The notes beneath the pieces are model-generated. The model did no database searches. It worked only from the letters and a program-made list of their open reading frames with translations, and was not told the DNA's origin. Of a stretch of 53,712 nucleotides of DNA, positions 4,374-10,580 are shown piece after piece (the stretch's first letter is position 1; each line of letters opens with the position of its first letter). The stretch is from contig NZ_JAATJG010000017.1 in the NCBI RefSeq assembly GCF_011927765.1, forward strand, positions 1 to 53,712, in the 5' to 3' direction. The stretch is from Wenyingzhuangia aestuarii (lineage in GTDB: Bacteria > Bacteroidota > Bacteroidia > Flavobacteriales > Flavobacteriaceae). Both the position numbers and the translations under genes were made by a program.

Positions 4374-4460
4374 AGTACAAAGTACAGAGTACAGAGTACA
4401 AAGTATTAAGTAAAATAGTCTAAGATAAATTGAAGACTTTGTACTTAATGCTTAATACTT
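4374..4460. repeat. Period-7 tandem/inverted array between hisG and hisD
   Basis: The gap is built of 7-bp units: TACAAAG, TACAGAG, TACAGAG, TACAAAG, TATTAAG in tandem. The downstream half is an inverted copy of such units: AAGTATTAAG (4401-4410) pairs with CTTAATACTT (4451-4460), and AGTACAAAGT pairs with ACTTTGTACT (4436-4445). The RNA could form a long imperfect hairpin between the cistrons. Confidence 0.8.
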
Positions 4461-4467
4461 ATAACAA

Positions 4468-5751
4468 ATGAAAACATACAATAATCCAGCAAAAAATACA
4501 TGGGCAAGAATAACCCAACGTCCGGCTAAAGAGGCTAATACGTTAGGTACTACTGTAAAAGCTGTTTTTGATGATATAAAAGAGAAGGGAGATGTTGCTT
4601 TAAAACAATATACTCAAAAATTTGATGGAGTTACTTTATCAGATTTAAAAGTTTCTCAGCAAGAAATAGACGATGCAATTCCTTTGGTTTCACAAGAATT
4701 AAAGGATGCTATTGTATTGGCTAAAAACAATGTAGAAAAATTTCATACTTCTCAAAAAATTGAGAAAAAAATAATTTCTACCGTAAACGGTGTAGATTGT
4801 TGGCAAGAAATGAAACCTATAGAAAAAGTAGGTTTGTACATTCCTGGAGGTTCAGCTCCTTTGTTTTCTACTATTTTAATGTTGGGAGTTCCGGCAAAAA
4901 TAGCAGGAGCAAGTAAAATAGTCTTGTGTACACCACCATCAAAAGATGGAACTATCCATCCAGCAATTTTGTTTGCTGCCCAACTAGTAGGTGTTACAGA
5001 AATCTACAAATTAGGAGGGATTCAAGCTATTGCAGCGATGACCTATGGTACGGAATCTGTCCCAAGTGTGTATAAAATATTTGGACCAGGAAATCAATTT
5101 GTAACCGCAGCAAAACAATATGCTTTAACACAAGGTTTGGCTATTGATATGCCTGCAGGACCTAGTGAAGTAATGGTTGTTGCAGATAAAGATGCCGATG
5201 CTAGTTTTGTGGTAGCAGATTTATTATCACAAGCAGAACACGGTGCGGATAGTCAGGTAATTTTAGTTACCGCTTCTCAACAATTAATTGATGAAGTTCA
5301 AATAGAATTAGACAAACAATTGGCTGAGTTGCCAAGACAAGAGGTAGCTACCTTGGCTATTGAAAACTCTAGTGCTATTTTAATAGATAGTATTGCAGAT
5401 CAAAATGAATTGATTAATGCCTATGCTCCAGAACATTTAATTTTAAATGTATTGAATGAAGATGTGTATTTAAGTGAAATTGTAAATGCTGGATCTGTAT
5501 TTATTGGACCTTTAACTCCAGAAAGTGCGGGTGATTATGCTTCGGGAACCAATCATACTTTACCTACGAACGGATACGCTCGTATGTACAGTGGTGTGAA
5601 TTTAGATGCATTTACGAAGAAAATTACCTATCAAAAAATAACAAAAGAAGGAATCTTAAACATAGGACCTGCTATTGAATTGATGGCTGCAGCCGAAGGT
5701 TTAGATGCTCACAAAAATGCAGTAACCTTAAGATTAAAGAGTTTGAAATAA
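4468..5751 (+). CDS. hisD: Histidinol dehydrogenase
   Basis: Zinc enzyme that oxidises L-histidinol to L-histidine with two NAD+ in the last two steps of the pathway. The 427 residues match the usual length. Signatures seen: VGLYIPGGSAPLFSTILML, the NAD-binding stretch KIFGPGNQFVTAAKQYA, DMPAGPSEVMVVAD, the conserved LLSQAEHGADSQ, and the zinc-region motif INAYAPEHLIL followed by GDYASGTNHTLPT. Second cistron of the operon, separated from its neighbours only by tandem-repeat spacers. Confidence 0.97.
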   Translation: MKTYNNPAKNTWARITQRPAKEANTLGTTVKAVFDDIKEKGDVALKQYTQKFDGVTLSDLKVSQQEIDDAIPLVSQELKDAIVLAKNNVEKFHTSQKIEKKIISTVNGVDCWQEMKPIEKVGLYIPGGSAPLFSTILMLGVPAKIAGASKIVLCTPPSKDGTIHPAILFAAQLVGVTEIYKLGGIQAIAAMTYGTESVPSVYKIFGPGNQFVTAAKQYALTQGLAIDMPAGPSEVMVVADKDADASFVVADLLSQAEHGADSQVILVTASQQLIDEVQIELDKQLAELPRQEVATLAIENSSAILIDSIADQNELINAYAPEHLILNVLNEDVYLSEIVNAGSVFIGPLTPESAGDYASGTNHTLPTNGYARMYSGVNLDAFTKKITYQKITKEGILNIGPAIELMAAAEGLDAHKNAVTLRLKSLK

Positions 5752-5836
5752 TTAGTACAAAGTACAAAGTACGGAGTACAGAGTATTTAGTAACAAAGAA
5801 ACTTAGGAATTTGTACTTAATACTTAATACTAATTG
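5752..5836. repeat. Period-7 tandem/inverted array between hisD and hisC
   Basis: Left half reads TACAAAG, TACAAAG, TACGGAG, TACAGAG, TATTTAG. The right half, read on the minus strand, is TATTAAG, TATTAAG, TACAAAT. Same unit family as the hisG-hisD gap but in different number and order; it runs almost to the hisC start codon. Confidence 0.8.
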
Positions 5837-5840
5837 AATT

Positions 5841-6884
5841 ATGAGTTTCGATTTAAAAAATATAATCAGAGAAAATGTAGCCAATATGAAAGCTTACTCT
5901 TCGGCAAGAGATGAGTTTACTGGAACTACAGATGATATGGTTTTCTTAGATGCGAATGAAAATCCGTTTGAAAATGGAGTTAATCGTTATCCGGATCCCA
6001 TGCAAAAGACTGTAAAGTCTGAATTGGCAAAAATTAAAGAAGTTGCTCAAGAAAATATTTTGTTAGGAAATGGTTCTGATGAAGTCATCGATTTAATTTT
6101 ACGTGCTTTTTGTGAACCTAAAGAAGATAATATCATCACTTTGCCACCTTCATACGGAATGTATGATGTGTCGGCAAATTTGAATAATATCAGCATTAAA
6201 GAAGTTCCTTTAAAAGAGAATTTTCAACCTAATGTTGCTAAAATATTAGAAACAGTTGATGCCAATACCAAAGTGATTTTCTTGTGCTCTCCAAACAATC
6301 CATCAGGAAACTTGTTTGATTATGCCAATGTAAAAGCTATTGTGGAAGGTTTTAACGGATTGGTGGTTGTAGATGAAGCTTATATAGATTTTGCATCGGA
6401 ACCAAGTTGGGTGACACGTTTAGAAAAACATCCGAATTTAATTGTAAGTCAAACCCTATCTAAAGCATTTGGTATGGCAGGAATTCGTTTGGGAGTTTGT
6501 TATGCATCTGCCGAAATTATTGCTGTATTAAACAAAATTAAACCTCCATACAACGTTAATGAGTTAACACAGCAAAAAGCTTTAGAACGTTTGTTGGCAT
6601 ATGAAGATGTACAAGAAGAAATTGAGGCTATTTTGGTAGAACGTGACAATTTAGAAATTGCGTTAAAAGAGGTTTCTTTTGTGGAGAAAATATATCCAAG
6701 TGATGCCAATTTCTTGTTGGTAAAAGTAGATGATGCTACAAAGCGTTACACTCAACTAATAGAAAAAGGAATTGTGGTACGTAATAGAACCACTCAAGTA
6801 TTGTGTGAAAATACCTTACGATTTACGGTAGGAACTATTAAAGAGAATATTGCCTTAATGAAGGCGTTAAAGGAGATTGAATAG
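5841..6884 (+). CDS. hisC: Histidinol-phosphate aminotransferase
   Basis: PLP-dependent class I/II aminotransferase that converts imidazole-acetol phosphate and glutamate to L-histidinol phosphate. 347 residues, normal length. Seen: LDANENPFENGVNRYPDP near the N-terminus, LGNGSDEVIDLI, CSPNNPSGN, VVVDEAYIDF, and the PLP-lysine motif SQTLSKAFGMAGIRLG with the Schiff-base Lys at about 208. Third cistron of the his operon. Confidence 0.96.
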   Translation: MSFDLKNIIRENVANMKAYSSARDEFTGTTDDMVFLDANENPFENGVNRYPDPMQKTVKSELAKIKEVAQENILLGNGSDEVIDLILRAFCEPKEDNIITLPPSYGMYDVSANLNNISIKEVPLKENFQPNVAKILETVDANTKVIFLCSPNNPSGNLFDYANVKAIVEGFNGLVVVDEAYIDFASEPSWVTRLEKHPNLIVSQTLSKAFGMAGIRLGVCYASAEIIAVLNKIKPPYNVNELTQQKALERLLAYEDVQEEIEAILVERDNLEIALKEVSFVEKIYPSDANFLLVKVDDATKRYTQLIEKGIVVRNRTTQVLCENTLRFTVGTIKENIALMKALKEIE

Positions 6885-6976
6885 TACTGAAAAAGTACAG
6901 AGTACAAAGTAGTTAGTACAGAGTTTTTTGTTGTTAAAATATACTTATTACTCAGTACTTTGTACTAAATACTAAA
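6885..6976. repeat. Period-7 tandem/inverted array between hisC and hisB
   Basis: Left units TACAGAG, TACAAAG, TAGTTAG, TACAGAG; right half on the minus strand TATTTAG, TACAAAG, TACTGAG, TAATAAG. Third spacer built from the same heptamer family. Confidence 0.8.
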
Positions 6977-6981
6977 AGAAT

Positions 6982-8121
6982 ATGAAAAAAGTTTTATTTA
7001 TAGACAGAGACGGTACCCTTTGTATTGAACCGCCTGTAGATTATCAATTAGATAGTTTAGAAAAGTTAGAGTTTTACCCAAAAGTTTTCCGTTACCTAGC
7101 AAGAATTGCTGAGGAATTGGATTACGAATTGGTGATGGTAACCAATCAAGATGGATTGGGAACAGATTCTTTTCCAGAAGATACATTTTGGCCTGCTCAA
7201 AACAAGGTGATTCAAGCTTTTAAGAACGAAGGAGTAGAATTTGCTGCTGTACATATAGATAAAACTTTTCCGCATGAAAATGCTGAAACTCGCAAGCCTA
7301 GAACAGGTTTGTTAACGCAGTATTTTGATAAAGAAAAATACGATTTAGAAAATTCTTTTGTGTTAGGTGATAGAATTACCGACATGGAATTGGCTAAAAA
7401 TTTAGGAGCTAAAGGAATCTTTTTATCAGAAAATCCTGAATTGGGTGCTGATGAAGTAGAGGCTGATGTAAAAGCAATTCAAGATTGCATCGCTTTAACT
7501 TCTACGGACTGGAAAACTATTTATGAATTTTTAAAATTAGAAGATAGAGTTTCAGAAATCACAAGAAATACCAACGAAACTAAAATTTACATCAAACTAA
7601 ATTTAGATGGTTCTGGTAAAAATGATATTTCTACAGGAGTAAAATTCTTTGACCATATGTTAGATCAAATTGGTCGTCATGGTTCTATGGATTTAACGGT
7701 AAAAGTAGATGGAGATTTAGAGGTTGATGAACATCACACTATAGAAGATACCATGATTGCTTTAGGAGAATTGTTCCATAAAGCCTTAGGAAATAAATTA
7801 GGAATAGAACGTTATGGATTCTGTTTGCCAATGGATGATTGTTTGGCACAAGCTGCTGTAGATTTTGGAGGAAGACCATGGATTGAGTGGGATGCTGAAT
7901 TTAATCGAGAAATGATTGGAGACATGCCTACCGAAATGTTTTTCCACTTGTTTAAATCGTTTACAGACGGAGCCAAATGTAATTTAAACGTAAGAGCAGA
8001 AGGAAAAAACGAACATCACAAAATTGAAGGGATTTTTAAAGCTTTTGCAAAAGCAATGAAAATGGCTGTAAAACGTGATGCGAATAAAATGTTTTTACCA
8101 AGTACGAAAGGAGTATTATAG
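6982..8121 (+). CDS. hisB: Bifunctional histidinol-phosphatase / IGP dehydratase
   Basis: Carries two non-consecutive steps. Residues 1 to about 165 are a HAD-type histidinol-phosphate phosphatase with the nucleophile motif [10 protein letters not shown] (Asp8, Asp10), [10 protein letters not shown] and [15 protein letters not shown]. Residues about 185-379 are imidazole-glycerol-phosphate dehydratase with [13 protein letters not shown], the metal-binding [23 protein letters not shown], and [13 protein letters not shown]. The fused form is known from enterobacteria and Bacteroidetes. Length 379 fits. Fourth cistron. Confidence 0.96.
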
Positions 8122-8126
8122 AAAAC

Positions 8127-8194
8127 AGTAGTTAAGAATTTAAGAAGTTAAGAAGCTACTTAACTCCTCATTTCCTTAACTCCTTAACTACTAA
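8127..8194. repeat. Period-8 tandem/inverted array between hisB and hisH
   Basis: The left half repeats AGTTAAGA, ATTTAAGA, AGTTAAGA. The right half on the minus strand repeats AGTTAAGG, AGTTAAGG, AAATGAGG, AGTTAAGT. Different unit and period from the gaps before it, but the same tandem-plus-inverted design. Confidence 0.75.
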
Positions 8195-8201
8195 AATAAA
8201 T

Positions 8202-8783
8202 ATGAAAATAGTAATTATAAACTACGGAGCAGGAAACATACAATCTATCCGATTTGCCATTGAGCGATTGGGATACGATGCTATTTTAAGCAACGATGTT
8301 GAAGAAATAAAAAGTGCAGATAAAGTCATCTTTCCAGGAGTGGGAGAAGCAAGTTCTGCCATGAAAATGTTAAAAGCTACCGGGTTAGATACTGTAATTC
8401 CAACCTTAACACAACCTGTTTTAGGAATTTGTTTGGGAATGCAATTGATGTGTAAATATTCTGAAGAAGGAGATACCACAGGATTAGGTGTTTTTGATGT
8501 AGACGTAAAACGTTTTGAGAACATTGTAAAAGTCCCTCAAATAGGATGGAACCAAATTAGCGGTTTGGGATCTAAGATTTTTAACAATGTTAAAGAAGGT
8601 GCTTACATGTATTTGGTACACAGTTATTATGCACCTTTAACTAAAGAAACTATTGCGACTACGGAATATGGGATTCAATACTCTACAGCATTGCAAAAAG
8701 CTAATTTTTACGGAGTGCAATTTCACCCAGAAAAAAGTAGTACAGACGGAGCTCAGATATTAGAGAATTTTTTGAATCTGTAG
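8202..8783 (+). CDS. hisH: Imidazole glycerol phosphate synthase, glutaminase subunit
   Basis: Class I glutamine amidotransferase that feeds ammonia to HisF in making imidazole-glycerol phosphate and AICAR. 193 residues, standard. The nucleophile elbow is PVLGICLGMQLM with Cys77; the His-Glu pair lies in YGVQFHPEKS near the C-terminus; the N-terminus IVIINYGAGNIQS is typical. It partners HisF, two genes downstream. Confidence 0.97.
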   Translation: MKIVIINYGAGNIQSIRFAIERLGYDAILSNDVEEIKSADKVIFPGVGEASSAMKMLKATGLDTVIPTLTQPVLGICLGMQLMCKYSEEGDTTGLGVFDVDVKRFENIVKVPQIGWNQISGLGSKIFNNVKEGAYMYLVHSYYAPLTKETIATTEYGIQYSTALQKANFYGVQFHPEKSSTDGAQILENFLNL

Positions 8784-8803
8784 TTGTTTGTTTTAGCAAC
8801 CAG

Positions 8804-8831
8804 AACGAACAACGAACAACGAACAACGAAT
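8804..8831. repeat. Four 7-bp repeats directly before the hisA start
   Basis: AACGAAC three times followed by AACGAAT, ending at the base before the hisA ATG (8832). The region that would hold a ribosome binding site is therefore repeat sequence. No clean inverted half; a GTTGTTTGTT-like stretch just upstream may pair weakly. Confidence 0.8.
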
Positions 8832-9557
8832 ATGAGAATTATACCAGCCATAGATATTATTGACGGACAATGTGTTCGTTTGTCTAAAGGAGATTACAAT
8901 ACTAAAAAAGTATATAATGAAAACCCTTTAGAGATTGCCAAGCAATTTGAAGCTCACGGAATAGAGCATTTACACTTGGTGGATTTAGATGGAGCCAAAG
9001 CAAGCCATATTGTAAATCATAAAGTTTTAGAACAAATAGCAACGAAAACAACCTTAAAAATTGATTTTGGTGGTGGTTTAAAAACCGATGAAGATTTAAA
9101 AATAGCTTTTGAATCTGGAGCCAATCAAATTACAGGAGGAAGTATTGCAGTAAAAAATGCAGCTGTTTTTAAAAGTTGGATTGCAAAATTTGGAGCAGAT
9201 AAAATTATTTTAGGAGCCGATGCAAATAATGAAAAAATTGCAGTTAGTGGTTGGTTAGAAGAATCTGATGAAGATTTGATTCCTTTTATTCAAGGATATC
9301 AAAAAGAAGGAATTCAATATGTAATTTGTACAGATATTGCTAAAGACGGAATGTTACAAGGTCCTTCTTTTGATTTGTATGAAAAAATATTAAAAGAATG
9401 TCCTAAAGTAAAATTAATTGCAAGTGGAGGAATTTCTACTTTTGATGAATTACCAAGATTAAAAGAATTAGGATGTGAAGGAACCATTGTTGGAAAAGCG
9501 ATTTACGAAAACAGAATCAGCTTAAAACAATTGGAAGATTTTATTATAGGAAAGTAA
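8832..9557 (+). CDS. hisA: ProFAR isomerase
   Basis: Amadori isomerase converting ProFAR to PRFAR on a TIM barrel. I start it at 8832 ([20 protein letters not shown]), the family N-terminus; the open frame continues 16 codons upstream but these are encoded by the AACGAAC repeats. The catalytic Asp is in PAIDI, and a second Asp follows in [16 protein letters not shown]. The phosphate-binding loops ([21 protein letters not shown]) are present. 241 residues. Sixth cistron. Confidence 0.96.
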
Positions 9558-9558
9558 C

Positions 9559-9627
9559 AAGTATGAAGTAAAAAGTAACAAGAATTTAGAAGTCTTGCTA
9601 CCTGTTACTTGATACCAGATACCAAAA
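9559..9627. repeat. Period-7 tandem/inverted array between hisA and hisF
   Basis: Left units AAGTATG, AAGTAAA, AAGTAAC, AAGAATT. The minus strand of the right half reads GGTATCT, GGTATCA, AGTAACA, GGTAGCA. Distinct unit sequence from the upstream gaps but the same period and arrangement. Confidence 0.72.
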
Positions 9628-9629
9628 TT

Positions 9630-10385
9630 ATGTTAGCAAAAAGAATAGTTCCTTGTTTGGATATAAAAAACGGACGTACTGTAAAAGGTGTCAATTTTGT
9701 AGATTTGCGTGATGCAGGAGATCCTGTAGAATTGGCAAAAAAATATGCAGCAACAGGAGCAGACGAATTGGTGTTTTTAGACATTTCTGCAACTGAAGAA
9801 CGTAGAAGAACTTTGGTGAATTTAGTAAGAGATGTAGCTGCACAAGTAAACATTCCGTTTACCGTAGGTGGTGGAATATCATCTGTAGAAGATGTTGATA
9901 TTTTATTGCAGAATGGAGCTGATAAAGTTTCTATCAATTCATCAGCAGTAAAAAGACCACAATTAGTGAATGAGTTGTCTCAAAAATTTGGAAGTCAATG
10001 TGTCGTAGTTGCTATTGATGCCAAAAAGATTGATGGAGAATGGATTGTGCATTTGGTAGGAGGTAAAGTTCCTACAGAGTTGAATTTATTTGACTGGGCA
10101 AAAGAGGTTGAAGAAAGAGGAGCAGGAGAAATTTTGTTTACTTCTATGAATAACGATGGAACCAAAGATGGTTTTGCCAACGATGCTTTGGCTCGTTTGT
10201 CAGAAGAATTAAACATTCCTATTATTGCAAGTGGTGGAGCCGGAAATGTGCAACACTTTATAGATACTTTTAAAGATGGAAAAGCAGATGCCGCTTTGGC
10301 AGCAAGTGTGTTTCATTTTCAAGAAATTGAAATTCCAGATTTAAAACAAGAGTTAAAAAAACAGGGAATTCCTGTAAGGTTATAA
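9630..10385 (+). CDS. hisF: Imidazole glycerol phosphate synthase, cyclase subunit
   Basis: TIM-barrel partner of HisH that turns PRFAR and ammonia into imidazole-glycerol phosphate and AICAR. The ATG at 9630 ([20 protein letters not shown]) gives the exact family start; the longer frame from 9609 lies in the repeat spacer. Catalytic Asp in CLDIKNG and Asp in [13 protein letters not shown]; phosphate loops FTVGGGI and IIASGGAGN are seen. 251 residues. Confidence 0.97.
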
Positions 10386-10400
10386 ATAGATTTTCTAAAA

Positions 10401-10545
10401 CATCTCGACTCCGCTCGATGAACTTTTTAGAATATTTACGATAAATATAACAGTGAAGAGTTTGGTTAAACTGTAAAAACTGTGGTAAAATAATAAAATT
10501 GATTGTCATTTTGAATTGCTATGGTCATCGAGCGTAGTCGAGATG
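10401..10545. repeat. Inverted pair of 21-bp repeats between hisF and hisIE
   Basis: CATCTCGACTCCGCTCGATG (10401-10420, extending one base) recurs as its reverse complement at 10525-10545 with one mismatch in 21. The left copy also sits inside TTCTAAAA (10393-10400) / TTTTTAGAA (10424-10432). G+C of the units is well above the surroundings. Repeats of this look are scattered through many flavobacterial genomes as far as I recall; mobility is not shown here. Confidence 0.8.
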
Positions 10546-10580
10546 AAAAATATAGAATTCGATAATAAAACATAAATCAA

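Follow-up and report, generated by a model that had tools for sequence, protein, structure and literature searches.

Most spacers of the his operon in Wenyingzhuangia aestuarii are best read as ORF-less hairpins similar to S23-coding intervening sequences

Introduction

Intervening sequences (IVS) with an S23/IVP open reading frame (ORF) are known from 23S rRNA genes of Coxiella and Leptospira. The Coxiella IVS is 428 nt long, has complementary borders, carries an S23 ORF preceded by tandem heptamers in variable number and is excised by RNase III, and the results obtained there suggested that the S23 protein is not made in vivo (PMC4990558). Heptamers have also been described in intergenic DNA, such as GGGAATC in Xanthomonas and GGGGA(T/C)T in Nostoc, with earlier heptanucleotides of Calothrix cited in the same work (PMC4692102), and TAACTGA direct repeats occur in Beggiatoaceae, Cyanobacteria and Bacteroidetes (PMC4679880). 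Here we describe the gaps of the his operon of the flavobacterium Wenyingzhuangia aestuarii, located on contig C17 (NZ_JAATJG010000017.1) of its 3.53-Mb draft genome, the window being the whole stretch of 53,712 nt that was analysed. Six of the seven his gaps probably belong to a family of hairpin insertion elements with inverted arms of 7-nt (sometimes 8-nt) units, as short members without an ORF; the long form of this family carries an S23 gene in its loop.

Heptamer repeats and IVS were each already known, and their joining is the new part. No paper with a general link between heptamer arrays and S23 elements was found in the literature searched, mostly non-subscription. The word S23 is absent from the text of PMC4679880 and of PMC4692102, the sections of PMC4679880 available to us make no mention of an intervening sequence, and those of PMC8700078 merely list four-helix-bundle genes. 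The original prediction for these gaps, which knew of no formal description of them, had missed the S23/IVS link; its statement is right only in part, intergenic heptamers and inverted pairs having been described in other phyla (PMC4692102, PMC4679880).

Results

Arrays in the his operon gaps

The genes, confirmed by NCBIfam, follow the order hisG-D-C-B-H-A-F-IE, and all seven gaps lie where the original prediction had placed them. It had taken every gap for a repeat array, which is correct for six of them (five of period 7, and hisB-H, the sole octamer gap, of period 8), whereas hisF-IE holds two palindromes of the repetitive extragenic palindrome (REP) type. The parts of the six elements are the following (TRF, Tandem Repeats Finder).

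4374..4412, forward strand: hisG-D element, 5' arm of AGTACAA/AGTACAG/AGTATTA heptamers (TRF period 7 at 4374-4405, score 50; period-7 score 22; end 4412 set by eye)
4433..4462, forward strand: hisG-D element, 3' arm of inverted copies (inverted repeats; RNA fold z -4.84)
5754..5792, forward strand: hisD-C element, 5' arm heptamers (TRF; period-7 score 17.5)
5813..5833, forward strand: hisD-C element, 3' arm (inverted repeat)
6892..6929, forward strand: hisC-B element, 5' arm heptamers (TRF; inverted repeat; period-7 score 10.5)
6938..6973, forward strand: hisC-B element, 3' arm (inverted repeat)
8127..8158, forward strand: hisB-H element, 5' arm of AGTTAAGA octamers (TRF; inverted repeat; period-8 score 19)
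8159..8192, forward strand: hisB-H element, 3' arm of CTTAACTC octamers (TRF; inverted repeat)
8783..8794, forward strand: hisH-A array, short 5' partner of 12 nt (RNA fold)
8804..8831, forward strand: hisH-A array, AACGAAC x3 + AACGAAT, abutting the hisA ATG at 8832 (sequence; TRF)
9561..9586, forward strand: hisA-F element, 5' arm (inverted repeat; period-7 score 9.5)
9590..9622, forward strand: hisA-F element, 3' arm, TACCTGT TACTTGA TACCAGA TACC (sequence; inverted repeat)

The hisH-A array has a period-7 score of 20 and ends directly before the hisA start codon, as predicted. A design of tandem units followed by inverted ones, supposed to be common to all the gaps, does not hold for hisH-A, which is a 3' array with only the short 5' partner. 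The hisF-IE gap scores 5.5 for period 7 and 6 for period 8, and belongs to neither array type.

The stem score exceeds the top of 30 dinucleotide shuffles in hisG-D, hisC-B, hisB-H, hisA-F and hisF-IE, and lies below it in hisD-C (12.2 vs 12.6) and hisH-A (7.1 vs 8.1). Folded as RNA, the six array gaps gave z values from -3.1 to -4.8 relative to shuffles. By this measure all six have the stem-forming complementary borders of rRNA IVS, two of them (hisD-C and hisH-A) not exceeding every shuffle in plain stem score. Their location, between protein genes and not inside a 16S/23S rRNA gene, places the his-gap elements outside the rRNA IVS class, and they are best read as ORF-less IVS-like hairpins.

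S23 genes between matching arms

A long gap with a small S23-like ORF was found in 12 of 80 public his loci, generally between matching arms, as chosen by eye. The two of these ORFs that were submitted to Pfam, from L031 and L032, match PF05635 (23S_rRNA_IVP); the S23 copy from the hisH-A gap of W. gilva matches this family at 4e-38. W. aestuarii has seven S23 genes. Together with 59 relatives it makes up a set of 60 genomes, of which 41 have at least one, compared with none of 14 control genomes.

To compare flanks, we kept 60 distinct S23 genes that had sequence on either side, from 66 matches, the best-scoring loci returned; the profile had been built from the 12 his-gap proteins chosen by eye, which may recur among these 60. 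The 80-nt upstream flank and the reversed downstream flank align at a score of at least 12 in 46 of the 60 genes, which are not 60 independent events because S23 loci include orthologues of each other. The same level was reached by 15.9% of swapped pairs and by 67 of 400 control ORFs, random frames of at least 150 aa from the same loci.

The hisH-A gap carries an S23 gene in four congeners (G001, G003, G005 and G006), where it is 428-483 nt long. In G002 this gap has only 43 nt, with a 3' end common to the S23-bearing form and a 5' arm common to it in part, which is what a deletion would leave. The gap measures 48 nt in W. aestuarii and 72 nt in the nearest congener, G004, each with other units. 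Judged from its sequence, the S23-bearing long form shares its architecture with the S23-coding IVS of 23S rRNA genes.

At four orthologous sites the dN/dS of the S23 genes was 0.03-0.39 where dS was computable, dS being often above 1, and the genes look to be under purifying selection. S23 is a four-helix-bundle protein; the closest solved structures by sequence are 2gsc (XCC0516) and 2rld, and we know of no enzyme activity for it. A model of Avd, the accessory protein of diversity-generating retroelements, matched one of two S23 proteins with 37.5 bits, below its cut-off of 80. The units showed no sign of the adenine mutagenesis of such retroelements: variation at consensus A was 0.119 in the 5' half and 0.108 in the 3' half, next to 0.122 and 0.092 at C, 0.172 and 0.104 at T, and 0.042 and 0.079 at G.

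S23 loci on plasmids and in a 23S rRNA gene

A tblastn search with one S23 protein gave 28 plasmid records, mostly cyanobacterial, of which 21 were fetched and 20 measured. The split S23 gene of L318 was left out, L317, with two S23 pieces, was measured by the second annotated piece, and the ends of the S23 frame in the unannotated L312 and L314 were set by hand. Two plasmids were fetched again with larger flanks and supplied 45 control coding sequences (CDS), S23 neighbours being left out. Among the 20 S23 loci, 14 have a period-7 flank array and 14 have complementary arms, 19 showing at least one of these features and nine both, compared with 5/45, 1/45 and 0/45 control CDS with an array, arms and both, respectively. 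Swapped arms reached the arm cut-off in 25% of cases, and period-7 arrays were also found in gaps away from S23 on the two control plasmids (1/19 and 3/15). In Pseudanabaena, some S23 arms are in direct, not inverted, orientation.

On the Azospirillum lipoferum plasmid AZO_p2 (L312), the region around the S23 element is assigned by Rfam over its full length to bacterial large-subunit rRNA. GGACAGA-type heptamers border one end of the S23 frame, and the inverse of these heptamers borders the opposite end. The element is an S23 intervening sequence, armed with heptamers, within a plasmid-borne 23S rRNA gene.

In a separate observation, three S23 genes of cyanobacterial plasmids (L297, L300 and L307) lie between cas genes, twice between cas6 and cas4 and once between cas10 and a cmr3-family gene.

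Frequency of the arrays

Gaps of 25-400 nt from 0.85 Mb of this genome and from other family members were scored against 30 dinucleotide shuffles each, a period score of at least 10 defining an array, with genes called by our own ORF script in unannotated genomes. In W. aestuarii, period-7 arrays occupy 18 of 304 co-directional gaps (expected 0.8), and none of 90 divergent (expected 0.6) or 65 convergent (expected 0.2) gaps, co-directional and other gaps differing with a Fisher p of 0.0006. Among periods 4-13 only 7 is prominent in the co-directional gaps, 14 being its harmonic. In G004 the counts were 17/162 co-directional (expected 0.3), 1/37 divergent and 2/24 convergent gaps. By contrast, such arrays are rare or lacking in the co-directional gaps of three other family members (0/153 in G020, 2/141 in G027 and 0/146 in G031), and a family-wide trait was rejected.

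The 80 public his loci comprise 538 gaps, 117 of them of at most 10 nt, 23 of 11-24 nt, 334 of 25-200 nt and 64 longer. With 10 shuffles per gap, period 7 was found in 100 of the 334 gaps (expected 1.8) and period 8 in 17 (expected 0.7), the remaining periods from 4 to 12 giving 0 to 3 each, around expectation. At least one gap of period 7 or 8 is present in 48 of the 80 loci. Tandem 7-nt units above chance, as in the described intergenic heptamer repeats, are then a property of this genome, G004 and the public his loci. The original prediction had asked for this comparison with shuffled sequence, and the arrays are far above it in co-directional gaps. Its proposal that spacers of this kind are built or spread by a general process finds support in these frequencies and in a sequence that turns over as the design stays, but the process is not universal, given the three relatives.

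Two further arrays of this genome deserve a description. The co-directional gap G000:C4:44611-44757 holds around 13 near-perfect TCGTGAG heptamers without an inverted arm, and the divergent gap G000:C1:330194-330380 holds a period-8 TTCTTTGT array of score 34, the sole period-7/8 array with a score of at least 10 in the divergent and convergent gaps of the part read.

Turnover of the gaps between species

Gaps were compared between W. aestuarii, six congeners and Ochrovirga, eight genomes in all, with a mean hisB/F/C nucleotide identity of 84-93%. Conservation in close relatives would have marked the gaps as ordinary regulatory DNA, and the outcome was mixed, often with no conservation: of 115 orthologous ORF-less gap pairs, 46 are less than 60% identical, 21 reach at least 75% and 48 lie between. 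The mean gene identity is alike at both extremes (0.886 and 0.881), and both arms switch units jointly between species, as seen by eye.

Relative to G004, four of the six gaps compared are replaced. Of the 32 windows of 60 nt that flank these four, 31 keep identities of 0.82-1.00 and one is at 0.70; the hisD-C gap is 96% identical between the two species. The hisC-B gap of G001 and G004 has an identity of 0.99, with nearest flanks at 0.83 and 0.92, and the near flanks of some other shared gaps are equally high, a pattern that short recombination tracts would give. Beyond its own site, the best match of the hisC-B element of the window in the seven genomes of the genus lies in the hisB-H gap of G005 (84% over around 88 nt, E 3e-20), a non-orthologous site.

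Base pairing in the hairpins

Pairing selected in RNA should tolerate G.U mismatches over A.C ones. Of 165 his gaps whose stem reaches at least 12, 112 are array hairpins, and their G.U:A.C ratio was 97:118, around the share expected from arm composition; it was 37:46 in 38 hairpins from this genome, G004 and G020. In 43 terminator-like control stems, selected by their T-rich tail and not matched to the arrays in base composition, the ratio was 20:4 (Fisher p 0.0004 and 0.0009 vs the arrays). The arrays do not have the preference for G.U of intrinsic terminators, and therefore the arms match through how they are made, or because they were recently made, in DNA. The pairing looks DNA-made, not RNA-kept, and RNA hairpins that serve processing or stability, as originally suggested, are disfavoured as the cause of the arm match. 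In the 5' arm, G outnumbers C in 27 of the 38 hairpins, is the rarer of the two in seven and equals it in four, and therefore the 3' arm, beside the start codon, tends to be poor in G.

Palindromic inserts in his gaps

The hisF-IE gap of the window contains, instead of a heptamer element, two palindrome copies.

10401..10421, forward strand: REP-like palindrome, copy 1, in hisF-IE (inverted repeat; core count)
10525..10545, reverse strand: REP-like palindrome, copy 2, in hisF-IE (inverted repeat; core count)

Their core, CTCGACTNCGCTCGA, has 64 exact genomic copies, of which contig C14 carries 25, and its reversed control has none. This is the only one of the seven gaps with a conserved high-copy palindrome, the units of the other six being different from each other.

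Some his gaps contain palindrome elements of another kind, inserts with a terminal TGAAACAAGTTCAGG-type palindrome and, where the following gene starts, TGATTAACAAGTTAATCATG or a close variant at the start codon. They were detected in L037, L042, L051, L055, L056 and L075 and in the hisC-B gap of G002, G005 and G006 (L187, L189 and L190). The insert of L042 has a GIY-YIG ORF (PF01541) between the palindromes, and most of the others are alike by eye. In the hisC-B gap of L102 and L106, a 203-aa ORF is flanked by CCCTGATAGGG-type palindromes. By its motifs it may be similar to a REP-associated transposase; the L102 protein had no Pfam match at 0.001.

Discussion

The his elements resemble the 23S rRNA IVS in their complementary-ended stem, in the S23 ORF of the long form, in length (428 nt in Coxiella and 428-483 nt in the hisH-A gap of four congeners), in the tandem heptamers beside the ORF, described for Coxiella, and in their sporadic presence (PMC4990558). 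They differ in lying between protein genes and in being mostly ORF-less, and the apparent purifying selection on S23 contrasts with the Coxiella protein, suggested not to be made. With the Xanthomonas and Nostoc repeats they share degenerate 7-nt tandem units, mainly intergenic, whose length and sequence vary between relatives, and inverted pairs, with 70 and 75 cases reported in Xanthomonas; that study follows a single unit family in each genome, whereas many unit sequences coexist here and S23 can sit between the arms (PMC4692102). The TAACTGA repeats are likewise intergenic heptamers, often upstream of start codons and present in a few flavobacteria such as Gramella forsetii, but they were studied as direct repeats of one heptamer and suggested to be translational binding sites (PMC4679880).

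In the his elements, the period of 7, the bias to co-directional gaps, the S23 gene in the loop, the occurrence across several phyla and within a 23S rRNA gene, the joint switching of arms and the lack of a G.U excess were all observed. By analogy with rRNA IVS, the hairpin would be present in the mRNA and probably cut by RNase III, and it would be harmless where the RNA can break without loss, in such a way that co-directional gaps would be favoured. Mobility may take place by copying or by short-tract recombination, and a DNA-level process would keep rewriting the arms.

A rather unlikely alternative is neutral local DNA copying, in which polymerase slippage favouring a 7-nt step and hairpin-templated repair (template switching) build and homogenise arrays in tolerant non-coding gaps, with S23 genes as passengers. 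It would account for a pairing symmetric in DNA with no G.U excess, for the fast turnover of length and sequence and for the lack of a link between S23 and units at different loci, and a proposal cited in PMC4692102 explains heptamers by slippage linked to the active site of the polymerase. However, slippage would also be expected in the longer divergent gaps of this genome, which have 0/90 arrays; the replacement of whole arms with near-intact flanks and the copy at a non-orthologous gap are not slippage, and the complementary arms around S23 in several phyla are left unexplained. Inter-cistron stem-loops selected in RNA for mRNA processing, stability or translation insulation would agree with the preference for co-transcribed gaps, with folds better than those of shuffles and with the G-richer 5' arm (27/38), and we still regard them as improbable, the G.U count not being above that of A.C, unlike in terminators, and 117 of 538 his gaps having at most 10 nt, so that those species manage without a hairpin.

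Ordinary repeat families, of palindromes associated with REP/RAYT or GIY-YIG, are by far the least probable filling of the gaps. They do explain hisF-IE, with its 64 core copies, and the palindrome-bordered inserts in hisC-B of G002, G005, G006 and other loci, where the one ORF checked was GIY-YIG. For the six gaps they are refuted by the lack of a fixed high-copy sequence, the units varying by gap and species and the period of 7 being constant. REP/RAYT palindromes and miniature inverted-repeat transposable elements (MITEs) are similar to the his elements as small non-coding palindromic gap inserts with ORF-bearing relatives, but they have a fixed consensus plus a transposase. The his elements have no fixed consensus, and their loop ORF is S23; their arms are inverted, and no transposase was identified in the long form.

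Several data weigh against the reading of the his gaps as members of an S23-bearing hairpin family. No insertion with target duplication was shown, no element of the window has an S23 gene and none of the seven of the genome is on this contig. The S23 link is weak by period alone in the flavobacterial set, because period-7 arrays flank 21 of 60 S23 genes and also 78 of 400 control ORFs, many from his loci; 14 of the 60 are below the complementary-arm cut-off. S23 and arm sequences are not correlated across different loci (Spearman -0.006), and therefore S23 need not act on the arms; an S23 type dictating the unit sequence was rejected for the same reason, and the units common to 23 of 24 same-locus S23 pairs at least 70% identical are what plain descent would give. 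G020 has four S23 genes yet no arrays in the 400 kb read, and the co-directional bias of G004 is weak alone, because of its three arrays in 61 divergent and convergent gaps. The 10-mers common to ORF-less arrays and S23 arms (40/45) are significant over the background (175/358), which was too high for this sharing to be kept as support.

A wider proposal is that the intergenic heptamers of Bacteroidota, Cyanobacteriota, Xanthomonas and other groups form, with the rRNA S23 IVS, one superfamily of mobile hairpin elements, both arms being jointly rewritten in DNA with a 7-nt step, an Avd-like S23 taking part, and kept where a cut in the transcript is harmless. We advance it tentatively, as possible but less likely than its opposite.

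The comparison of G.U with A.C mismatches is a simple means of separating DNA-made from RNA-selected hairpins. In the literature surveyed, heptameric repeats have no agreed explanation and S23 no known function, and their linkage gives each of them a testable partner. These two unexplained things meet where S23 lies between heptamer arms, in Flavobacteriia, on plasmids of cyanobacteria and within a 23S rRNA gene, and the likeness to S23/IVS may help to explain the seven-letter repeats of several bacterial groups. In part of a large bacterial family, operon spacers are filled by elements that are replaced fast, which affects the reading of such gaps as regulatory DNA.

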